Below, one piece after another: positions 4,794 to 28,335 of a DNA stretch of 44,800 nt; position 1 is the stretch's first letter, and every line of letters begins with the position of its first letter. Under the pieces are notes generated by a model. It was not told the origin of the DNA and did not search any database. It was given only the letters and a program-made list of their open reading frames with translations. Position numbers and translations under genes: made by a program. Source of the stretch: Chloroflexota bacterium (GTDB lineage: Bacteria > Chloroflexota > Dormibacteria > Dormibacterales > Dormibacteraceae); assembly GCA_005881155.1 (NCBI GenBank), contig VBHN01000205.1, forward strand, positions 1-44,800, given 5' to 3'.

Positions 4794-6290
4794 TCAGGAG
4801 GCCGGGGCGGGCGCCGGGACCTCCTCGCTCTCGTAGCGGCTGCCGATCCCGCGCGCCATTTGCGGGTCCCGTGCGCGGACGATGAAGTACCAGACGAGGC
4901 CGATCGCCACCCACGCCAGGAAGATGTAGGGAAGCCAGGAGTAGACGCCGGTCAGGGCCGGGAAGAGCCCCCCGGGAATGAGCTGGGGCAGCCAGTTGGC
5001 CCAGAAGACGAAGATCATCGACAGCAGGCCGATGACGCCGACGACCCAGACGAGCGGGGACGGAGTCCCGCGCTGCCGAAGGTAGAAGGGCGCCGCAAGC
5101 GAGACTAGCGCGTAGGCGAGCATGAAACCGAAGGTCGCCACGGTGCCCACCCAGCCGGTGAGGTCCACCGCGCTGGCGCCGAAGAGGACGGGGACGATCG
5201 CGATCAAAACCATCGGGGTAGCCACCACGTAGATCGCGACGTGCGGCGTGCGGTGGGAAGTGTGCGTGCGCGTCAGGGCCGGTACGCCCATGCCGTCGTG
5301 CGCCATCGTCAGCGCCATCCTTGCCGAGGCGTTGATGCAGGCCAGGGTGCACGCGAAGAGGCTGAGGCAGATTGCGATGTCCATCACCGGTGCCAGGAAG
5401 GTGAGGCCGACGATGTTGGCGAGGTCGGGCAGTGGAGCCAGGCTCTTGGCAAAACCGGTCTTGCTGCCCGCGAAGCCGAAGACCTGGGAATAGACCACCA
5501 CGACGTAGAAGAGCCCGACGACCAGGGCGCTGTAGATGATCGCGCGCCCGATCATCCGATAAGGATCACGCGCCTCGATTCCGAGCGCGCCGGCGCTCTC
5601 GAAGCCCACGAAAGCGAAGATGGAGAGGACGACGCCGACCAGGATGCCGCCGATCGTCACGCCCTTGAGCGTGAACTGGTCGCTGTGGAAGAGGCTGCCC
5701 GCATGGAGCCAGATGGCGACGCAGAGGATCAGGATCAGCGAGACCGAGATCACCTCCAGCGTGAGGCTGGTCCGAGCCGAGAGGCGCATGTCCATCACCG
5801 CGACCGCCACCGGGACCGCGATGTCGATCAGGAAAAGGACGGTCAGCAGCCAGCGGTTGTCGGCTGGGATCGCCCCGCCGCTGACCCGGTTCAGGAAGTC
5901 GGCGCCGAAGATTCCGAAGCCGGTGATCGTCGCCACGCCGGTGATGATGTAGCCGAGCTGCAGCGCCCAGCCCGCGGTGTGCCCGGAGCCGGAGCCAAGG
6001 CCCCGGGTCACCCAGACGTAGAAGGATCCGGCCGAGTTGGTGTTGCGGGAGAACTGGGCGCAGCAGTAGCCGATGCAGACCATCAGCACGACGGCGATCA
6101 CGAAGGAGATCCAGGAACCGTTGCCGGCATTTACGAAGACCAGCAGCGGCAGGAGCGCCATGGCTCCCGTCGGCGACATGTTCGCCACCGACTGGGCGAA
6201 GACCTCGGGAAAGCTGAGGGTGTTTCGACGCAGGGTGCTGGCGCCGGCCGCGCCAGATTGGTCGCCGGCGCTCTCTTTGTGTTCGACCAC
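4794..6290 (-). CDS. APC-superfamily amino acid/amine permease
   Basis: A 498-residue membrane protein with about 12 helices. The first helix pair carries the unwound substrate-binding signature 'SPTGAMALLPLLVF', typical of APC transporters, and helix 6 region reads 'SIFAFVGFESAGALGIEARDP', the second conserved APC motif. GTG start with a G-rich Shine-Dalgarno (GGGGGG) upstream. It begins 15 nt after the copper amine oxidase stop, so the two form one operon. The pairing suggests import of a primary amine or its precursor amino acid for oxidation by the neighbour. Confidence 0.9.
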   Translation of the reverse strand: MVEHKESAGDQSGAAGASTLRRNTLSFPEVFAQSVANMSPTGAMALLPLLVFVNAGNGSWISFVIAVVLMVCIGYCCAQFSRNTNSAGSFYVWVTRGLGSGSGHTAGWALQLGYIITGVATITGFGIFGADFLNRVSGGAIPADNRWLLTVLFLIDIAVPVAVAVMDMRLSARTSLTLEVISVSLILILCVAIWLHAGSLFHSDQFTLKGVTIGGILVGVVLSIFAFVGFESAGALGIEARDPYRMIGRAIIYSALVVGLFYVVVVYSQVFGFAGSKTGFAKSLAPLPDLANIVGLTFLAPVMDIAICLSLFACTLACINASARMALTMAHDGMGVPALTRTHTSHRTPHVAIYVVATPMVLIAIVPVLFGASAVDLTGWVGTVATFGFMLAYALVSLAAPFYLRQRGTPSPLVWVVGVIGLLSMIFVFWANWLPQLIPGGLFPALTGVYSWLPYIFLAWVAIGLVWYFIVRARDPQMARGIGSRYESEEVPAPAPAS

Positions 6291-6305
6291 TTTCTATTCC
6301 CCCCG

Positions 6306-8270
6306 CTACTGGCCGTTGTGGTGCGCGTGATGCGCGCTGTGCGTCGACGGGACGTCGAGGCCCGGGTTGCCGTCGAAGAATCCGTTGGGCCTGAGCTGGA
6401 ATCCAAGCTGGATCACGGGCATCACCGGCCAGTCCTCGGGCCGGACCGGGTGATGGGCTCCGAACGAGTACCAGACCACGACATCGGTGTTCTCGAGCGG
6501 TCGGTCGGCTGCCTGGTAGGCGGGGAGACCGGCTCCGCCCGGGTTCTGGTTCGGGTAGTCGCCGGCCGCATAGAGCTCGCTTCGGTCGTAGGCGGTGACC
6601 CACAGGTGATTGGTCGTGAACTGGGCCCGCTTACTCGCCGATGAGTCCGGCTTGAAGAAAGGAAGCACGTTGTCGCCCGGCATCAGCTTGTAGGCGACCG
6701 GTTCACCGACCAGGTTCTTCTTGTTCGGGTTGGCGATCTTCCAGGTCCGGCCGAGGTGCTGGTTGGTGCGGCTCTTTGCCTCGGACTCCTTCTGGAAGGG
6801 CGTCTGCTTCACGACCCAGGCGTTGCCGTGTGGATTCTCCGCTTCCGGGGCCTGGGCGCCGTCCACCTCGTAAACCGTGTTCTCGAGGCCGTCCACCATC
6901 ATGTCCAGCCGCATGTTGAACCAGTGCTGGTGATTGGGGCCGTAGACGCCGGGCGCCACCAGGCTGCCGAATTTGGGCGTATCGCCCTCGGTCACCGCGC
7001 CGTTCGAGATGACGCCCGTCATCTTGACCTCGTAGCCGATGGTGCCGTCCTGGTAGAAGTACCAGAAGTACCCGTACTCGTAGTTGCCGACGGTGGCGAT
7101 CGTGGACAGCACCAACCGCCGCGACCTCCGGACCTCCGTCTCGCCGGTCCGGAAGTCCATGTGCTTCCAGAGGATGCCGGCGTCCTCCTCGTGCAGGCAG
7201 ACCGCGTTCGTGATCGTGTAGGGGTTGCCGTCGTTGTCGTTGACGACCCCGTTGAAGTAGTGGATCTCGCCCAGGCAGTCGCAGCCCAGCTCGAGGCTGT
7301 TGCAGAGCATCCCGACGCCGTACTCACCCATGTCGAAGACCTGCTTGCGGTAGTGGGTCGGGTTCGGGTCGCCGTAAGGAACGAACATCTCGTTCATCGA
7401 CGCGCGATAGATGATCGGCCGAAGCCTGTCGCCCTCCCGGTATTGGAGCAGGTGGAGGACCATGCCTTCGCGGGGCGTGAAACCCACCCGGAAGCTCCAC
7501 TTCTGCCACTGGACCAGGTTGCCTTCCACCGTGAAGCTGGTTCCCTCGGGTTGGCTGATCTGGAGGTCCTTCAAGTCCTTGCGCGGCCCGTCGGGAAAGG
7601 ACGGCACGTTCTGGGGGTCGGAGATCTGGTCCGCCTCGTAGTTCGCCTTCCGGGTCGCCAGCGGCACGACGCCGAAGTCCTTGACCTCGACCACTTCCAT
7701 CCGATCGAGGTCGAACCGAGTCAGCAGACCTTCGACCGGTCTTGCGTAGCTGTGCTCGCCGGGGCCGCTCCGAACCCAGGTCAGCGGCTGGACGAAACGG
7801 CCCTTGTCCGCGTCATCCTCGGGACCGTTGTGACCAACCGACCACGGGTCGAGGATCACCAGGTCGAAGTCGGTGACGCCGCGCTTGCGCATCGCCTCCT
7901 GCCAGCGAACGTCCTGCTTCATCTTCTCCTCCGCGATCAGGAATTCCTCCTGCATCACCGAGGGCTGGACGCCAGGCACCTTCTTCCAGCTGACGACCCG
8001 CTGGTTGGTCACCGACACGATGGCCTCGTAAGTCGCTCGCTCGGTCCGATGGCGGATGACGATCTTCGCCTGGCGATCGATCTGGCCGCCCGCTTTGAAG
8101 GCGAGCACCTCGCTCTTGTCAGGCTCATGAAGTGCGACGCTGACGAATCGGGCGTCGGAATCCAGGCCTTGCCCCGCCTTGAGAATCGTGGAGGCCGCCT
8201 CGACTTCGTCGGCCGAGAGCGGGTCCAGCGGATGCCGCCTGGTCGCAACCGAAGGCTGGATTGTCTGCAT
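6306..8270 (-). CDS. Copper-containing primary amine oxidase
   Basis: A 654-residue quinoprotein that oxidises primary amines to aldehydes with release of ammonia and hydrogen peroxide. The topaquinone precursor is Tyr397 in the N-Y-E-Y motif. The likely catalytic base is Asp313 in 'VFDMGEYGVG'. Copper ligands are His447 and His449 in NHQHW, with the third in 'AHHPVRPEDWP' near the C-terminus. Length matches Arthrobacter-type phenylethylamine/histamine oxidases. No signal peptide is visible, so it is cytoplasmic or exported another way. The C-terminus has a short His-rich tail (HSAHHAHHNGQ). First gene of an operon with the APC permease; the promoter lies at 8375-8404. Substrate is not decidable from sequence. 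Confidence 0.95.
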   Translation of the reverse strand: MQTIQPSVATRRHPLDPLSADEVEAASTILKAGQGLDSDARFVSVALHEPDKSEVLAFKAGGQIDRQAKIVIRHRTERATYEAIVSVTNQRVVSWKKVPGVQPSVMQEEFLIAEEKMKQDVRWQEAMRKRGVTDFDLVILDPWSVGHNGPEDDADKGRFVQPLTWVRSGPGEHSYARPVEGLLTRFDLDRMEVVEVKDFGVVPLATRKANYEADQISDPQNVPSFPDGPRKDLKDLQISQPEGTSFTVEGNLVQWQKWSFRVGFTPREGMVLHLLQYREGDRLRPIIYRASMNEMFVPYGDPNPTHYRKQVFDMGEYGVGMLCNSLELGCDCLGEIHYFNGVVNDNDGNPYTITNAVCLHEEDAGILWKHMDFRTGETEVRRSRRLVLSTIATVGNYEYGYFWYFYQDGTIGYEVKMTGVISNGAVTEGDTPKFGSLVAPGVYGPNHQHWFNMRLDMMVDGLENTVYEVDGAQAPEAENPHGNAWVVKQTPFQKESEAKSRTNQHLGRTWKIANPNKKNLVGEPVAYKLMPGDNVLPFFKPDSSASKRAQFTTNHLWVTAYDRSELYAAGDYPNQNPGGAGLPAYQAADRPLENTDVVVWYSFGAHHPVRPEDWPVMPVIQLGFQLRPNGFFDGNPGLDVPSTHSAHHAHHNGQ

Positions 8271-12603: not shown

Positions 12604-13803
12604 ATGAGCGCCAGGCCCGCCATAGTCCTGGTCGATGACGAGCGTGCAAACTTGCTGCTCCTCAGGACCTATCTCAAAGACATCGACTGTTCGGTCAGTG
12701 CCTATCAGGATCCAGTCCGAGCATTGGAGGTTGCAGAGCAGGCTCCGCCGGATCTGATGGTCATCGACCTTCAAATGCCGGAGATGGACGGCATCGAGCT
12801 CTGCCGCCGCCTCAAGGCGGCCTCGTCGACTCGACTCGTGCCCGTGCTCGTGGTCACGGCCCTGGATTCCAGGGAGCGCCGGCTGGCCGCCCTGGAGGGC
12901 GGCGCCGACGACTTTCTCAGCAAGCCGATCGACCGCGTCGAGCTCCTGGCCCGAGTCCGGTCTCTGCTCCGCTTGAAGGGCGTCATGGACCAATTGCAGG
13001 ATGCGAACCTGGCCAAGAACGAGTTCCTCGCCAACATGAGCCACGAGATGCGGCAGCCTCTGAACTCCATCCTCGGCTTCACCGAGCTTCTGCTGACCAA
13101 TCCCCAGGCTCTTGCCGATCAGCCGCGCGCGCATCGCTACATCGACAACGTGCAGACCGCCGGCCGCCACCTGTTGGCGCTGATCACCGACGTGCTCGAC
13201 CTGGCGAAGATCGAGTCACGCCGGCTGGAGCTGACACTCATCGAGGTCGAGGTCAAAGAGCTGCTGACGTCGCTCCACGAGATGATGCTCCCCATCGCGC
13301 GGTCCAAGGGTGTCCGGCTGCGAGTCCGCGCGCAGCCGCGACTGGCCGTCGTCGCCGACGACATGCGCCTCAGGCAGATCGTGCTGAACCTGGTCACCAA
13401 CGCTGTCAAGTTCACGCCCAGCGGTGGCTTGGTCTCGATCGGCGCGTCCAGCGGCGCCGGTTGGATGGAGATCACCGTCGCCGACACCGGGGTGGGAATT
13501 GCGGCCGAGGACCAGGGTCGGGTCTTCGAGGCCTTCACCCAGCTCGACGTGGCAACCAATCGGGAGCCTGGCGCCGGCCTCGGCCTGGCGATGGTCAAGC
13601 AATTGACCGAATTGCACGGTGGCCGCGTGAGCCTGGAGAGCGAGCTGGGCCGAGGGACCACGGTCAAGGTTCGCCTACCGCGTGCCGAACCATCAGCACC
13701 GAAGGCCCACGGGAAAAGGGTTGTCACGCGCGCGATCCCTTTAGATACATTGCTCGAAGATGGCGGCCAACAAGCGCTCGAGGGACAAGCGGGCGGCGCC
13801 TGA
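12604..13803 (+). CDS. Response regulator-histidine kinase hybrid
   Basis: A 399-residue soluble hybrid. An N-terminal receiver domain (about 5-120) has phospho-acceptor Asp55 in 'MVIDLQMPEMDG' and the Thr/Lys switch positions (VVTALD, SKPID). A short linker leads to HisKA with His147 in 'NMSHEMRQPLNSILGFTELLL' and a HATPase domain with N box 'NLVTNAVKFTPSGG', DTGVGIA and 'GAGLGLAMVKQL'. The REC-first order is that of kinases driven by an upstream phosphodonor rather than by a ligand sensor. The C-terminal 40 residues overlap the PPK2 gene by 44 nt, so the two are co-transcribed. Confidence 0.93.
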   Translation: MSARPAIVLVDDERANLLLLRTYLKDIDCSVSAYQDPVRALEVAEQAPPDLMVIDLQMPEMDGIELCRRLKAASSTRLVPVLVVTALDSRERRLAALEGGADDFLSKPIDRVELLARVRSLLRLKGVMDQLQDANLAKNEFLANMSHEMRQPLNSILGFTELLLTNPQALADQPRAHRYIDNVQTAGRHLLALITDVLDLAKIESRRLELTLIEVEVKELLTSLHEMMLPIARSKGVRLRVRAQPRLAVVADDMRLRQIVLNLVTNAVKFTPSGGLVSIGASSGAGWMEITVADTGVGIAAEDQGRVFEAFTQLDVATNREPGAGLGLAMVKQLTELHGGRVSLESELGRGTTVKVRLPRAEPSAPKAHGKRVVTRAIPLDTLLEDGGQQALEGQAGGA

Positions 13804-16290: not shown

Positions 16291-16761
16291 ATGAGACGCC
16301 TGCTTTTCCTGGCTATCTTCATCGTGCCTGCGCTCGTCCTGGGCCTGGTGAGCGACGCCGCCGCGGGACAGGTCGACGGCGTCAAGGGCGAAGGGGGGCG
16401 GCCCTTCACCACGACCCTGCTCGGGGCCAACGAGGTGCCCGCCGCACCCGGGTCGGACCTGATGGGGACGGCCCGGATCACGATCAACCTGGGGCAGTCC
16501 GAGCTCTGCTGGGACCTCGACTACAGCACTACCCAGAAGGTGGTCGCGGCCCACATCCACAAGGGCGACCCGGGCCATGCCGGCCCGATCGTCTTCGGCT
16601 TCTTCAACCCGCCGCCCTCCGCCACCGTCGTCAACAGCGGCTGCCGGGAAGGCGATCCCGCGCTTCTCGCCGATATCGCCGCGAATCCAGCCGCCTACTA
16701 CGTCAACGTCCACACCACCGCTCACCCGGCGGGCGCGGGGCGCGGCCAGCTGACTAAATAG
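16291..16761 (+). CDS. Secreted CHRD-domain protein
   Basis: A 156-residue exported protein. The signal peptide is MRRLLFLAIFIVPALVLGLV...AAA. The remainder is one CHRD domain: 'FTTTLLGANEVPAAP' at the start, the 'AAHIHKGDPGHAGPIVFGFF' core and the closing 'YYVNVHTTAHPAGAGRGQL'. CHRD domains occur in chordin and in many bacterial secreted proteins; their biochemical role in bacteria is unclear. ATG start supported by GGGGGA. Its end overlaps the convergent nucleotidyltransferase stop by 8 nt. Confidence 0.9.
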   Translation: MRRLLFLAIFIVPALVLGLVSDAAAGQVDGVKGEGGRPFTTTLLGANEVPAAPGSDLMGTARITINLGQSELCWDLDYSTTQKVVAAHIHKGDPGHAGPIVFGFFNPPPSATVVNSGCREGDPALLADIAANPAAYYVNVHTTAHPAGAGRGQLTK

Positions 16762-17602
16762 GGGGCCCCGCTCGGGCGGCGATCACGACGGCGGAGTTGA
16801 TCGCCGCCAGGACGAAGTCACTGGTCACGCGCGGGCGGGACAGCCGGGGCGTGGCGTGCTGGGGCCGCGAGGCACCTGTCCAATACGCGCGCGTCTCTTC
16901 CAGAAGTGGCTGCCAGCCAGAACCCAAAGCGCCCAGCGCGTAAGTGCAGGCTTGCGTCTTGGTGGCAATGTCGCCGGTCGTGATCGTGTAGTGCATCCGT
17001 GACGTACCGAGCACGCCCCACGCAACGTAGCGGAGCAGCAGCGCCTTCGCGGCGATCTGCCCGGGACGCCGCAGGTCTCCCGCCCAGCGGCGCCAGTATC
17101 CGTTCAGGTTGCCGAGGGTCCAACGCCGCAGCTCCGCGTCATCTCGCCAGATGCGGAGCTTCGCCGGCGCCAGGCCGCGAACGGCGATACCGGACTCGGC
17201 GAGGATTCGCCAGGTCACCGGATTGACGTCGAAGCCCGCGTCGGCGGTGAGCCTGCCGCCGACGTGTGACGCCAGCGGAACCACGTCCAATGGCGACCTG
17301 GCGACGTCTTCCTTCAATACATACACGCCGTTGCAGACCAGGGGCCAGCGCCAAGGGAGGGATGAGACCGACTCAACCAAAGCTGCGCGGTAGAGGTGCC
17401 GTTGGGCACGGTTGAGCGACGCCAGCTCGGCCGGCGAGAGGCGATGGTCCACCAGGGCGACGAAGTCGATGTCACTGCGCCCGGCCTGGAAGGCTCCGAG
17501 TGCGGCCGACCCCACAAGATAGAAGCCCGAAACGCGACCAGGCAAGGCACGGTCGACGGACGCGAGGTAGCGGTCAACCGCTTCGTCGACTGTCGCTTGC
17601 AC
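16754..17602 (-). CDS. AadA-like nucleotidyltransferase (DUF4111-type C-terminus)
   Basis: A 282-residue protein with the polymerase-beta-type nucleotidyltransferase motif 'GSAALGAFQAGRSDIDFVAL' (G-S-x9-10-D-x-D) near residue 32 and a helical C-terminal domain of the DUF4111 class ('ADAGFDVNPVTWRILAESGIAVRG', 'KALLLRYVAWGVLGTSR'). This arrangement is that of streptomycin 3''-adenylyltransferases, but chromosomal relatives without resistance activity are common. GTG start, 4 nt after the stop of another nucleotidyltransferase gene, so both form an operon. Aminoglycoside modification is possible, not shown. Confidence 0.82.
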   Translation of the reverse strand: MQATVDEAVDRYLASVDRALPGRVSGFYLVGSAALGAFQAGRSDIDFVALVDHRLSPAELASLNRAQRHLYRAALVESVSSLPWRWPLVCNGVYVLKEDVARSPLDVVPLASHVGGRLTADAGFDVNPVTWRILAESGIAVRGLAPAKLRIWRDDAELRRWTLGNLNGYWRRWAGDLRRPGQIAAKALLLRYVAWGVLGTSRMHYTITTGDIATKTQACTYALGALGSGWQPLLEETRAYWTGASRPQHATPRLSRPRVTSDFVLAAINSAVVIAARAGPPI

Positions 17603-17606
17603 CGGC

Positions 17607-18344
17607 TCAGGTGAGCTCCCGCACCGCTCGCTCGAGGCGGGCGGCCAGGTTGGCGTCTACTTCGCTGATTTCGCTCAGGAGGCAGTCGATCGCCACTCGG
17701 AACGCCCGCCTCAGCTCATCGGCGGCGATCGCCCGGACCAAGGCCTCGGCCGCGGCGGCGGTCACCTCGGCGGGCAGCAGATCCAGGCCCCGGCCCTGGG
17801 AGGTGGGAAGGCCGAGGCGCAGACAGGCGAGCGCGAGTGCCTGGTCGCGCACTCCGCTGACCATGTACTCGGCCTGCCAGAGCTTTCCGCGCTCGAGGCA
17901 GGAGCGGGCGTGCAGGGCGTGGAGCCAGCCCAGCCCGATCAGGTTCGAGGCGGTCGGTGCCGGCGGACGAGCCAGCTCGGCGGCGGAACCGAACAGCAGC
18001 CGGAAGGTCGGGGCGCGGGCGCCGAACTCGGCAGCTGGTGAGAAGGCGAGGTCGACCTGGAGCGTGCTGGGGAGCAGGAAGACCCGGTAGATCGAGGCTC
18101 CGACGGGGACGTCGAGGTGGTGGAGCACGCCATGATCGCGATACATCCGGTCGGTCCAGTCCGCCAGCACCTCCTGGAAGAGGGCGCCGTCCCCGATGCC
18201 GAAAGCAAGGTCGATGTCGGACCATTGGTCCTCGCTCCCAGCCGCGGCCGACCCGGTCAGCGCCCCGCCGGTTATCCGCGGGTCGGCGCGCGCGGCCGCC
18301 AGGAGGGCGGCCCGCAGGCGCTCCCGCTCGGCGGGCGTGTACAC
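17607..18344 (-). CDS. Nucleotidyltransferase domain protein
   Basis: A 245-residue protein with 'GGALTGSAAAGSEDQWSDIDLAF', the G-S plus D-x-D motif of the polymerase-beta superfamily, and a third acidic position near 'TLQVDLAFSP'. The C-terminal part is helical and Ala/Leu-rich and was not assigned to a family. GTG start. It is the first gene of a two-gene operon with the AadA-like protein; the two share fold but have different C-terminal domains, so they are not a simple duplication. Substrate unknown (antibiotic, nucleotide or protein). Confidence 0.8.
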   Translation of the reverse strand: MYTPAERERLRAALLAAARADPRITGGALTGSAAAGSEDQWSDIDLAFGIGDGALFQEVLADWTDRMYRDHGVLHHLDVPVGASIYRVFLLPSTLQVDLAFSPAAEFGARAPTFRLLFGSAAELARPPAPTASNLIGLGWLHALHARSCLERGKLWQAEYMVSGVRDQALALACLRLGLPTSQGRGLDLLPAEVTAAAAEALVRAIAADELRRAFRVAIDCLLSEISEVDANLAARLERAVRELT

Positions 18345-20916: not shown

Positions 20917-22071
20917 CTAACAGGTCCCGGGCGCGCTCCCCAGGACCACCGGCGTCGAGGCGGCCCGATCCGGAGTGCTGGAAACCGCGAGCAGCGCCTG
21001 GGCGCCGACCGCCGGCACCGCCACCGCACTCTGACTTTCGACGTGCGTCCAGCCCGGCTGGGCGGTGAAGGAGCCGGCGCCAACCTGCACCACCGATCCT
21101 CCGCAGAACTGGACCGACTCCACAGTCCAGGCGACCGAGCGCGGCCGTGGCGAAGGCGTGATCCAGACCTCGACCTGGACCAGGCACGAGGAACCGCCCT
21201 GGCAGGCGGGATCCAGCAGGCGCAGCCCGACGCTGCTGACCTGGCCCGCCGCGGCCGGCGCCAACAGCGGAATGGCCGGCTTCGAAACGGGCGTGCTCGG
21301 CGCCGGCTCCGGAGGCGCCACGTCCCGGACAGTGGCGGCAGCCGGCGCGGCCAGGGCGACCGTGGAGGAGGTCGCGCCGACGCGGCCGTGGTACCCGAGG
21401 GCCGCGCGCAGGCCGGACGGCGGAGAGAGCGCCACCAGGCCGGCGACCAGGGCTGCGGCGGCGCCCGCCCCGACCCAGCGTCCAAGCCGGCGCGGCGCGC
21501 GGCTTTCGGTTCGGCCGGCCGCCGGCGGCTGTGGGTCGGGAGCCGGGCTCTCGGTCGGACCCACGACCAGGTCCGCCAGCCGCTGACGGGCCTGCGCCTG
21601 CACGCGGCGGGTGGCCAGCCGGCCGGCGGCCTCCCAGAGCGCGAGGCGCGCATCGACGGCCGCGTAGATGGTCAGCCGCTTGCTGCGCGTGCCTCTGGCC
21701 ATCCGCCGCGCCAGCGCCTGGAGCGGCTTCTCGGTTCGGCCGGTGGTCCGCGAGTTCCGCCCCGCCGGCTCCTGGTCGAGCCTCAACCGCAGCATCGAGC
21801 AGAGGAGGACGCCGACCGCCTGGAGGTCGGAGGCCCGCAGCTGCGAGTCGGATTGCCCGGCCGGGGCCGGCCGGTTCGCGCCCAGGCGAACCGTGCCGTC
21901 GGCGTGGACGTGGACGTTTTCGGCCTCGAGGGAGCCGTGCCAAAGGCCGACCTGGTGGAGGGCCGCGACCGCGTCGAGGACGCTCATCGCGACCGCGACC
22001 GCGCACATCGGCGGCAGCTTGGCGCGCTCCAAGAGCGCAGCCAACAGCACACCCGGTTCCTCTGCCCCCAT
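20917..22071 (-). CDS. Membrane-anchored pseudokinase-like protein
   Basis: About 384 residues. The N-terminal half resembles the C-lobe of a Ser/Thr protein kinase: 'VLDAVAALHQVGLWHGSLEAENVHVHADGTVRLG' aligns with the catalytic-loop segment, but HRDLKPEN is replaced by HGSLEAEN and the DFG position reads GAN. There is no recognisable N-lobe, glycine loop or VAIK lysine. A single membrane helix (GAGAAAALVAGLVAL) near residues 200-220 leads to an Ala/Pro-rich extracellular linker and a C-terminal beta domain with Cys residues. Phosphotransfer is therefore unlikely; a binding or scaffold role is inferred. The track start is TTG 22083, but the predicted promoter places that codon upstream of the transcription start, so ATG 22071 is used. 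Confidence 0.75.
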   Translation of the reverse strand: MGAEEPGVLLAALLERAKLPPMCAVAVAMSVLDAVAALHQVGLWHGSLEAENVHVHADGTVRLGANRPAPAGQSDSQLRASDLQAVGVLLCSMLRLRLDQEPAGRNSRTTGRTEKPLQALARRMARGTRSKRLTIYAAVDARLALWEAAGRLATRRVQAQARQRLADLVVGPTESPAPDPQPPAAGRTESRAPRRLGRWVGAGAAAALVAGLVALSPPSGLRAALGYHGRVGATSSTVALAAPAAATVRDVAPPEPAPSTPVSKPAIPLLAPAAAGQVSSVGLRLLDPACQGGSSCLVQVEVWITPSPRPRSVAWTVESVQFCGGSVVQVGAGSFTAQPGWTHVESQSAVAVPAVGAQALLAVSSTPDRAASTPVVLGSAPGTC

Positions 22072-22085
22072 CACAGCCGACAAGT

Positions 22086-22136: not shown

Positions 22137-22385
22137 ATGAATAACGCGTCAGTCCTCTTCTCGGGCCTGGTGACAGCGCTCCTGGGCGTCGTCTTCCTGC
22201 TCCTCGCGTTCGAGACCTGGGCGCTCTTCAGCGGCCAGAAGCCGATCAGCGACTACGTCCATGCGACAGTCCATGCCTATCCGGGGCCCGCCTTCGTGGT
22301 CGCGGTCGTGATCGGAATGCTGATCGGCCACGTGCTCTGGGGCCCACCCGGCGCCCTCGGCGTGCGGCAGGGCCGGAGCCTCTGA
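22137..22385 (+). CDS. Small two-helix membrane protein, copy A
   Basis: An 82-residue protein hidden in a longer out-of-context ORF of the track. A perfect AGGAGGT lies 3 nt before its ATG. Two hydrophobic helices ('VTALLGVVFLLLAFETWALF' and 'AFVVAVVIGMLIGHVLW') flank a short loop. It is clearly homologous to the next gene: both have VGV/LGV-x-FLL, a Glu-Thr pair after helix 1, a GxxP loop and a closing G-M-L-x-G-H-x-x-W motif. Function unknown. It is divergent from the pseudokinase. Confidence 0.75.
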   Translation: MNNASVLFSGLVTALLGVVFLLLAFETWALFSGQKPISDYVHATVHAYPGPAFVVAVVIGMLIGHVLWGPPGALGVRQGRSL

Positions 22386-22388
22386 CCC

Positions 22389-22601
22389 GTGCATGTCACG
22401 GCTGAGGCCATCCTCTCCCTGCTGGCCACCGTCTTCGTGGGCGTGCTCTTCCTGCTAATGCTCGAAGAGACGCAGAGCATCGCCAGGGGGACCGACCCGA
22501 TGACCAGCCGGCTGCACGACCTCACCCGGCGCTTTCCTCGTGCGACCTACGCGCTGGCCGTCGTCCTGGGCATGCTGCTGGGCCACCTCTACTGGCCGTG
22601 A
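22389..22601 (+). CDS. Small two-helix membrane protein, copy B
   Basis: A 70-residue protein with GTG start 3 nt after the stop of copy A, so the two are co-translated. Helix 1 is 'LLATVFVGVLFLLMLEETQSI', helix 2 'TYALAVVLGMLLGHLYW'. The loop is more basic (RLHDLTRRFPRATY) than in copy A. The C-terminal G-H-L-x-W end resembles small membrane proteins seen in some actinobacterial phages, but no other phage gene is nearby, so this is only a resemblance. Confidence 0.7.
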   Translation: MHVTAEAILSLLATVFVGVLFLLMLEETQSIARGTDPMTSRLHDLTRRFPRATYALAVVLGMLLGHLYWP

Positions 22602-25756: not shown

Positions 25757-26104
25757 ATGGTAGGACGTATCGTCAACGCCAAGGTGGCCAAGGCTGGTCG
25801 GCGCTACACACCGGTCGCGCCGGAGGCGGCGGCTGCCGCACTGAAGGACCACCCGGCCTGGGTCGTGGAGCGAAGCCGGATCTACCGTGACTTTCGCCTC
25901 CCCGACTTCAAGGCGGCGATCCGCTTCGTCAACGAGGTCGCCGAGCTGGCCGAGGAGGCGGGCCACCACCCGAACATCCATCTCCACGAGTGGTGCTTCG
26001 TGCAGCTCGAGCTCTACTCGCACGCGGCCGGCGGCCTCAGTCGATACGACGTCGACTTCGCTCTCGCGCTGGACCAGCGCCTGGGGTCCGCCTCCCGCAA
26101 ATAA
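25757..26104 (+). CDS. 4a-hydroxytetrahydrobiopterin dehydratase (pterin carbinolamine dehydratase)
   Basis: A 115-residue PCD/PhhB-fold enzyme that dehydrates the pterin carbinolamine made by aromatic amino acid hydroxylases. The signature is complete: 'EEAGHHPNIHLHEWCFVQLEL' with the catalytic His pair, then the 'GLSRYDVDFALALD' ending with D-x-D/A. The start is ATG 25757; the track hides it inside a longer antisense-derived ORF. No phenylalanine hydroxylase is next to it, so it may serve another pterin enzyme or recycle damaged cofactor. It lies 26 nt before the fusion ATPase gene. Confidence 0.9.
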   Translation: MVGRIVNAKVAKAGRRYTPVAPEAAAAALKDHPAWVVERSRIYRDFRLPDFKAAIRFVNEVAELAEEAGHHPNIHLHEWCFVQLELYSHAAGGLSRYDVDFALALDQRLGSASRK

Positions 26105-26130
26105 CCGTCCACGGCGGCGTTAACAGGTCT

Positions 26131-28335
26131 GTGGATCGAGGGGACCCGCCACACCGTTCCAGCACGCGCACGCGGCGTCGCCCCGCGCGCCCGAACGGCT
26201 CGGAGTTCCGCTCGGCCTTCCTGGCGGCCGGCGTCGCAATGGCCCGGCTGACCCAGGACGGGATCCTCATCGATGCCAACCCCTCCTTCGTGAGGCTGCT
26301 CGGCCAGTCCGGGAAGAAGCTGGCCGGGCGATCGCTCCTCGACCTTCTCCACCCCGATGACGCGGCGGGCTTGCGGGCCGGCCACTTGAGCAAGCTGAGC
26401 GCGGGCACGATCCTCGCCGAGCTCCGCTTCCAGGCTCCGGGGCGGACTGTCTGGGGCCGTGCCAGCCTGGCTCTCGCCCGGCAGCCGGGTGACACGCCGG
26501 ACGGCCTGGTGCTCACAGTCGAGGACCTCACCGCCCAGAAGGCCCGCGAGGCGAATCTCGAGCAGGAGCGCCTGAGCGACCCGAGCACCGGGCTCGCCAA
26601 CGCCACCGAGTTCATCCGCCGGCTCTCCCGTTCGCTCAGCGCCGCGCGCCGCCGCAAGCGCAAGCTGGCAGTCCTGGTCATCGAGCTGGAAGGATTGGGC
26701 AAGATCGGCGATGAGCTCGGCCAGGGCTCGGCCGACGACCTGGTCGGCCAGCTGGCGGCCCGGCTCCAGGAGCTGGTCCGACCCTCCGACTGCGCGGCGC
26801 GGACCGGCGGCAACGAGTTCGGGCTGGTCCTCAACGAGGTCAGCGAGGCCGACCTGGCAGCCGGAGTGGGACGGAGGCTGATGGCCCGCCTGGAGCCGGA
26901 GTTCCAGTTCGGCGCCGCCGGCGTCCGGGCCCCGGTCGGCCTGGGCGTCGCCATCTTCCCTGACCACGGCCAGGACGCCCAGTCGCTGCTGCGGATGGCC
27001 CGCCTCGACCTCTACCTGGGAGACCGCTCCGGGGCCGCCGCAACATCGCCCTCAGCCGGGTCGGCCGCGGCCACGACAGGACCATCGACCCCGACCAGAA
27101 CCGGCGAGGAGATCCCTGCCGACCTGGAGGCCGGCGACCGGCTGGCAAGGCGGGTCGAGGTCCTGGAGCCAGTCTCGCTCTTCCAGGCCGTGCCCCAACA
27201 GGTCCTGCGCCGGATCGCCCGCTACCTGAGCGAGCAGACCGCGGGCGCCGGCGAGGTGGTGGACGGCGCCGGCTCGCCGGCCGCGCTGCGAATCATCGAG
27301 GAGGGCGTCTGCGAGGTCCGCAGCGAGTCGGTCTCCCTGCTGACCCTGGGACCTGGCGACTTCATGGGCGCCGACTCGCTGCTGCTCGAGAACCCACTCC
27401 CGACCGAGGTCCACGCCCTCACCGACTGCAAGCTGCTGGTCCTCGACCAGGAGCTGGTCGCGCGCCACGCGCCGGCAGGATCGGCTTTCCGGGAAGCCCT
27501 GCGCGTTGCCGCCGGGCAGCGTGACAAGCACCTGCGCTCGCTGCTGGACCGCCCGCGGCGGGCAACCTCCGGCTCCACCGCCACCCAGGTCGCGGTCTAC
27601 TCGACCAAGGGCGGGTCCGGCCGCACCACGCTCGCCCTCAACCTGGCGGCCGAGCTCGGGCACCGGCACCCCGGCGAGGTGCTGCTGGTCGACCTCGCCC
27701 TTCCCTACAACCACGTCGCGCTGCTGGCGAACCTCTCCCCCTCGACCTCCCTGGCGCGGGTTGCCCAGGCGACCGATCAAGGGACGTTCCGTCAGCTCCT
27801 GCTGAGCTCGGTCCTGCCCCATCCGGCCGGCTTCATGGCCCTTCCCACCGCGCTCCGGCCGGAGGAGGCCGAGCTCGTCAAACCCGAGCTCCTGGTCCGG
27901 GCGCTGGAGATCCTCAGCGCCCAGTACCGCTACCTGGTCTTCGACCTCGGCGTCTCGCTCGACGACTGCGTGCTGGCCGCGCTCGAGGTCAGCGACCACC
28001 TGGTCCTGGTCGCCACCCCGGAGCTGGCCTCGATGCACGACTGCCGGCAGCTGATCGACCTGGCCACACGCGTCCTGCACATCCCCGCCGGGAGGGTGCA
28101 CACGGTGCTCAACCACCGGGCGCCCGACTCCGCGATGAGCCGCAAGGTTGTCGAGGAGGTCCTCGGCCACGGGCTGGCCGCCGAATTCCGCTACTTCGGC
28201 GCCAAGCCCGAGCTGGCCGGCCTGGAGGGCAAGCTGCAGGTGCAAACGGATCCCGGCGGCGCCTTCAGCCGCAGCCTTCGGACGCTCCTCGACCAGCTCG
28301 TCGAACGCGTCCCGAGCCGCGGCGCAGCCAATTGA
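26131..28335 (+). CDS. PAS - degenerate GGDEF - cNMP-binding-like - MinD/TadZ-type ATPase fusion
   Basis: A 734-residue cytosolic multidomain protein. PAS (about 25-140): 'MARLTQDGILIDANPSFVRLLG', with PAC-like 'LVLTVEDLTAQKA'. GGDEF-like (about 145-290): keeps 'LSDPSTGLANATEF' but the metal-binding D-x-D is E-L-E (VIELEGLGK) and the signature is GGNEF at 226-230. Cyclic-nucleotide-binding-like (about 345-470): 'VSLFQAVPQQVLRRIARYL' and 'LGPGDFMGADSLLLENPLPTEV', without the phosphate-binding Arg. C-terminal ParA/MinD/CpaE-type ATPase (about 485-730): deviant Walker A K493-GGSGRTT with Arg498 in place of the P-loop Lys, then 'VLLVDLAL' and 'RYLVFDLGVSLDD'. The track start lies inside the dehydratase gene; GTG 26131 fits. 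Its stop overlaps the next gene (TTGA). TadZ/CpaE proteins place pili or secretion machines; no tad genes are here. Confidence 0.85.
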   Translation: MDRGDPPHRSSTRTRRRPARPNGSEFRSAFLAAGVAMARLTQDGILIDANPSFVRLLGQSGKKLAGRSLLDLLHPDDAAGLRAGHLSKLSAGTILAELRFQAPGRTVWGRASLALARQPGDTPDGLVLTVEDLTAQKAREANLEQERLSDPSTGLANATEFIRRLSRSLSAARRRKRKLAVLVIELEGLGKIGDELGQGSADDLVGQLAARLQELVRPSDCAARTGGNEFGLVLNEVSEADLAAGVGRRLMARLEPEFQFGAAGVRAPVGLGVAIFPDHGQDAQSLLRMARLDLYLGDRSGAAATSPSAGSAAATTGPSTPTRTGEEIPADLEAGDRLARRVEVLEPVSLFQAVPQQVLRRIARYLSEQTAGAGEVVDGAGSPAALRIIEEGVCEVRSESVSLLTLGPGDFMGADSLLLENPLPTEVHALTDCKLLVLDQELVARHAPAGSAFREALRVAAGQRDKHLRSLLDRPRRATSGSTATQVAVYSTKGGSGRTTLALNLAAELGHRHPGEVLLVDLALPYNHVALLANLSPSTSLARVAQATDQGTFRQLLLSSVLPHPAGFMALPTALRPEEAELVKPELLVRALEILSAQYRYLVFDLGVSLDDCVLAALEVSDHLVLVATPELASMHDCRQLIDLATRVLHIPAGRVHTVLNHRAPDSAMSRKVVEEVLGHGLAAEFRYFGAKPELAGLEGKLQVQTDPGGAFSRSLRTLLDQLVERVPSRGAAN

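Follow-up and report, generated by a model that had tools for sequence, protein, structure and literature searches.

A predicted receptor-like pseudokinase lacking the kinase N-lobe in a Chloroflexota bacterium

The locus and the encoded protein

The window analyzed here is the whole 44,800-nucleotide stretch of DNA, and it carries on its minus strand a complete ORF with an ATG at 22071 and a stop codon at 20917-20919, alternative starts being available at 22074 (GTG) and 22083 (TTG). We take this ORF to be a real gene because its composition at third codon positions is coding-like (GC3 of 0.89) and because it is conserved over nearly its full length in another genus, where the copy in genome G019 shares 49% identity over residues 10-384. 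From the N to the C terminus, the encoded 384-aa protein consists of a kinase C-lobe (residues 8-170), a Pro-rich basic linker, a membrane segment, a second linker, and an outer domain; the coordinates of these features are collected in Table 1.

Table 1. Features of the pseudokinase gene (positions in the window)
Feature	Position	Strand	Basis or remark
Complete ORF, N-lobe-less receptor-like pseudokinase	20917..22071	-	384 aa, ATG start; 49% identical over 375 aa in a second genus
C-lobe, first half: alphaD, alphaE, catalytic loop, beta7, beta8 (residues 8-68)	21868..22050	-	Alignment to relatives and canonical kinases
HGS at the HRD position, Ser for the catalytic Asp	21931..21939	-	Alignment to canonical kinases
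Catalytic-loop Asn kept (N52, the N of HRDxKxxN)	21916..21918	-	Alignment
ANR at the DFG position; DRD in close relatives	21871..21879	-	Alignment
C-lobe, second half: alphaF-alphaI (residues 75-170), very short activation segment, alphaF Asp D82 kept	21562..21849	-	Alignment
Pro-rich juxtamembrane linker, basic residues before the membrane	21478..21561	-	Sequence; poorly conserved
Predicted single membrane-spanning segment (residues 199-217)	21421..21477	-	Hydropathy; position shared by relatives
Extracytoplasmic domain of about 120 aa with four conserved Cys, predicted mainly beta-strand	20920..21285	-	Alignment of 13 relatives; strands from a low-confidence model

The initial annotation had proposed a single membrane helix followed by a Cys-containing extracellular domain, and both elements are borne out. 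The predicted helix lies at about residues 199-217; its hydropathy is modest in the 384-aa protein (1.69) and reaches 2.28 at the corresponding position of both close relatives. The outer domain contains four Cys conserved among the relatives, at residues 290, 296, 323, and 384, the last being the final residue of the protein; in the alignment of 13 relatives, the Cys at segment positions 41, 68, and 129 is invariant, and another near position 35 is usually conserved.

Kinase homology, motif loss, and the pseudokinase family

When the 384-aa protein was searched alone against Pfam and NCBIfam, all the kinase matches were subthreshold (12 to 15 bits for PF00069 [Pkinase], with a cutoff of 31.7), and it would therefore go unnamed in a single-sequence search. 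A leave-out HMM, built from six full-length relatives with the 384-aa protein and its two closest kin excluded, scored the protein at 116 bits, the best of 2,000 shuffles reaching 10. A profile of the three N-lobe-less proteins alone matched the C-lobes of kinases in the PDB at the correct position, the best match being PAK4 (E value, 2.3e-4) and further ones GCN2, Bradyzoite pseudokinase 1, and SSN3, while a family profile that also included the full-length relatives matched PDB kinases across both lobes (E value, 1.6e-19). By homology, the 384-aa protein is thus assigned to the protein kinase superfamily. The initial annotation had staked its reading on similarity to the kinase fold, and this similarity was indeed found, by sequence profiles and not by structure. 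A single-sequence AlphaFold model was of low confidence (pLDDT, 42.5), its secondary-structure elements coming in an order that fits a C-lobe with a beta domain after it; its Foldseek matches were not meaningful and were set aside.

The catalytic motifs were aligned with those of five canonical kinases encoded in the genome itself, all of which have HRD and DFG. The string HGSLEAEN, proposed earlier as the counterpart of HRDLKPEN, is present at 21916-21939 with HGS under HRD, and the catalytic-loop Lys is replaced by Glu. Among the catalytic-loop residues proposed as lost, the loop Asn is still present, and the GAN assigned to the DFG position was one residue off, since L-G-A-N-R-P aligns with L-A-D-F-G-L and so brings ANR under D-F-G. 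Only some 13 to 15 residues separate the DFG position from the alphaF Asp. A kinase is counted as a pseudokinase when at least one of the beta3 Lys, HRD Asp, and DFG Asp is lost, and here all three are absent; of what defines an active Ser/Thr kinase, the protein has neither an N-lobe with a Gly-rich loop and beta3 Lys nor, with HGS and ANR, the two acidic motifs. A bilobal fold is usual for pseudokinases, if not always stated as defining, and because the C-lobe alone is encoded, we file the protein as a C-lobe-only pseudokinase variant and not as a typical member. Judged from its sequence, it cannot bind ATP or phosphorylate a substrate in the canonical way, because the N-lobe, the beta3 Lys, the HRD Asp, and the DFG Asp are missing and hardly any activation segment is left.

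Searches among the relatives, together with an outer-domain search of 400 genomes of the phylum, revealed a paralogous pseudokinase family that is largely confined to the host's class. The HRD Asp is kept in only one family copy. In a conserved lineage spanning about 25 genomes, the catalytic loop reads MGG or LGG and GHP takes the place of DFG; elsewhere in the family the HRD position is occupied by HGA, HGS, HGG, HGR, or QER. At the DFG position, the close relatives have DRD and the 384-aa protein ANR. The class-wide pseudokinases of the HG and MGG types (such as G013 C142 and G020 C4) share the outer domain, the C-lobe, and the loss of the HRD Asp with the 384-aa protein but keep a degenerate N-lobe, which is lost in the 384-aa protein and in the G019 and G009 copies. 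The MGG/GHP lineage with the same outer domain recurs in G026, G020, G001, and others (L011, L015, L069, and L083-L106), and in several of its genomes the pseudokinase lies beside a ferredoxin gene and an isocitrate/isopropylmalate dehydrogenase-like gene.

In the tree, the 384-aa protein and the G019 and G009 copies form one clade (support, 99/91), with the full-length G013 C142 pseudokinase as its sister (99/97), and the canonical kinases are set apart from the pseudokinase family (100/97). Because the N-lobe-less clade is nested beside a full-length pseudokinase, catalysis was lost before the N-lobe; most simply, the N-lobe was lost a single time.

The outer-domain profile had no match in Pfam or the PDB. 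The domain was detected in 30 of the 400 genomes, 29 of them in the host's class and the remaining one a 680-contig assembly with 8% contamination, and where the sequence suffices to tell, it is nearly always fused to a pseudokinase. On these profile searches, we regard it as a previously unnamed domain, almost confined to one class. In G059 C32 (L018/L046), the four-Cys domain follows an N-terminal part with multiple membrane helices and a Pro-rich stretch, no kinase domain being detectable there.

Constraint on the C-lobe and absence of the N-lobe

Since a dead half-domain could simply be decaying, we asked which parts of the protein are under selection. In rough regional counts from a single genome pair (NG86, G019 versus G009; comparisons with the window copy approach saturation), dN/dS was about 0.19 for alphaD-beta8 and 0.11 for alphaF-alphaI, compared with 0.27 in the outer domain and 0.34 across the linker and membrane segment. 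The C-lobe, which is 56 to 59% identical between the 384-aa protein and the G019 and G009 copies, is thus under the tightest constraint, and this speaks against a decaying relic. These same values make it unlikely that the selected function resides in the membrane-anchored outer domain while the cytoplasmic C-lobe is an inherited remnant that merely folds or anchors, even though the N-lobe and the catalytic residues are gone, no partner has been identified, and in one case, G059 C32, the outer domain has no recognizable kinase part attached. Strong selection on the C-lobe would also suit a noncanonical enzyme, that is, a truncated kinase fold recruited to another chemistry, as happened in pseudokinases such as SidJ that proved to be enzymes; the catalytic-loop Asn is retained, and enzymes among pseudokinases are on record elsewhere (PMC6858067). 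We nevertheless consider such an enzyme very improbable, as a kinase fold holds its nucleotide between two lobes, one of which is missing here, and neither the DFG nor the HRD acid is left in the window copy. Decay into a pseudogene in the window genome is less credible still: DFG is most degraded in the window copy (ANR, with DRD in both close relatives), yet that copy's 384 codons are intact and coding-like in composition, it is conserved in another genus, and dN/dS over the whole ORF is about 0.5 even at the near-saturating divergence from that genus.

The absence of the N-lobe was traced at the DNA level. In tblastn searches with the N-lobes of five relatives, no N-lobe remnant stood out from noise in any frame, whether in 4.5 kb at the window locus or in 7 kb surrounding the copies of G019 and G009; the same five queries recovered the N-lobe of G013 (E values, 1e-5 to 1e-51). 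In the window, a divergent plus-strand gene with a Shine-Dalgarno sequence (AGGAGG) begins at 22137, leaving 66 bp to the ATG at 22071; in G019, the reading frame is closed by a stop codon five codons ahead of the conserved start. The absence is common to three genomes in two genera. The N-lobe, whose lack the initial annotation had noted, is missing from the DNA itself and has not been miscalled. A normal N-lobe of an ordinary full-length pseudokinase, concealed by misassembly, a frameshift, or a wrong start, might be imagined from the full-length sister in G013 and from a same-genome paralogue with its lobes in different frames, but the three separate assemblies with differing upstream genes, the lack of any tblastn remnant upstream, the G019 stop, and the nearness of the divergent gene leave this scarcely tenable. 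That paralogue (L043; G000 C234, 5941-7508, minus strand) has its N-lobe at 7191-7508 and its C-lobe and outer domain at 5941-7245, in different overlapping frames, which may reflect a frameshift, a sequencing error, or a split gene.

Likely role and comparison with known systems

The explanation that we favor, and hold to be probable, is descent from a kinase that lost its activity, with the C-lobe kept as part of a noncatalytic membrane scaffold or adaptor. The ancestor would have been a transmembrane Hanks-type Ser/Thr kinase with a kinase domain, a Pro-rich linker, one membrane helix, and an outer sensor domain; the catalytic residues would have been lost first, across the class-wide paralogous family, and the entire N-lobe second, in the lineage of the 384-aa protein only. 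The remaining helical C-lobe (alphaE, alphaF, and alphaH-I), under selection, would most probably serve as a cytoplasmic protein-binding platform, while the four-Cys outer domain might bind a component of the cell envelope or anchor or oligomerize the protein there. The scaffold or adaptor role is the most likely one given the lack of catalysis, the selected C-lobe platform, and the envelope-facing outer domain; the adaptor role, the binding platform, and the sensing or anchoring by the outer domain are all inferred, and any partner, ligand, or signaling is putative. The same genome encodes five canonical kinases and two FHA domains, and a pairing with one of these kinases or with an FHA protein is conceivable. 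The earlier view of a membrane-bound, N-lobe-less pseudokinase that is not an enzyme gains support from the homology, from the conservation of these features in two genera, and from selection on the C-lobe. Its further proposal, a transmembrane adaptor that senses a ligand or partner, is plausible. The bolder proposal, that a C-lobe-only half kinase is a stable, selected, partner-binding receptor module with a new class-restricted four-Cys outer domain, the N-lobe being dispensable, stands in our estimate at an even chance.

The layout is that of the Hanks-type transmembrane kinases (PknB/StkP-like), with a cytoplasmic kinase, a linker, a membrane helix, and an outer sensor, and the C-lobe is homologous to theirs; the 384-aa protein differs in having no N-lobe, catalytic residues, or PASTA repeats and in its four-Cys outer domain, which matches no known family. 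The MviN pseudokinase sits in a multipass flippase-like protein. In Mycobacterium tuberculosis, this pseudokinase (ActPs3 family) has both lobes, dimerizes via the N-lobe, carries a carbohydrate-binding domain, and acts as a scaffold, recruiting FhaA once phosphorylated by PknB (PMC12599244). The 384-aa protein resembles it as a membrane-associated bacterial pseudokinase with degraded motifs and a shortened activation loop, and so the MviN/FhaA comparison made in the initial annotation stands as a functional analogy, whereas the architectures differ, MviN being two-lobed with an N-lobe dimer interface (PMC12599244). Membership in MviN/ActPs3 is ruled out by the length of 384 aa, the one predicted membrane segment, and the absence of the N-lobe. 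EssB/YukC of type VIIb secretion is likewise a single-pass membrane pseudokinase with an attenuated activation loop and a noncatalytic assembly role (PMC12599244, PMC9600267); the 384-aa protein shares this layout, but EssB/YukC is two-lobed and part of a secretion system, and the YukC family (PF10140) had no match in the whole genome, nor did the 384-aa protein match it in Pfam. Both MviN and EssB/YukC are thus best regarded as functional analogies and not as relatives by membership. In the GLW pseudokinases, GLW replaces HRD, the beta3 Lys region reads LLLL/W, and a membrane helix follows the pseudokinase (PMC12599244). The 384-aa protein also has its membrane helix after the pseudokinase and, by chance, a GLW string just before HGS; the register rules out membership, as GLW comes ahead of the HRD position, and there is no N-lobe to carry LLLL/W.

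To our knowledge, bacterial pseudokinases have received hardly any study. The examples covered in review to date are presented as whole-kinase-fold variants (PMC12599244), and an exact-phrase search of the literature, which is weak evidence, found no N-lobe-less pseudokinase. The 384-aa protein is a lineage-specific variant within a class-wide family of dead receptor kinases and probably acts by partner binding. A lineage that first lost catalysis and then its whole N-lobe, while purifying selection on the C-lobe remained strong, offers a natural experiment: setting the full-length G013 sister against the half-domain proteins could reveal which portion of a dead kinase is the functional one. 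The outer domain, compact and unnamed, is amenable to a family model and to structure determination.

The neighboring genes offer no clue to the partner of the 384-aa protein: none is shared between the window locus and the loci of the relatives, bar the gene's own overlapping frames, the neighbors being a desaturase and small membrane proteins in the window, an amidase and an acetyl-CoA synthetase in the g10 genomes, and an amino acid permease in G013. A further exception, a weak match, links the window ORF at 12604-13803 to an ORF of G000 C234. Two small membrane proteins encoded side by side on the plus strand (22137-22385 and 22389-22601) have a similar C-terminal motif (GMLIGHVLWGPP and GMLLGHLYWP) and no Pfam match, and they are likely tandem paralogues. 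Judged by eye, two adjacent ORFs at 16754-18344 (minus strand) are nucleotidyltransferase-like, with the motifs GSAALGAFQAGRSDIDFVALVD and GSAAAGSEDQWSDIDLAFG, and a large ORF at 25990-28335 (plus strand) combines PAS/GGDEF-like, cyclic-nucleotide-binding-like, and ParA/MinD-like ATPase parts.
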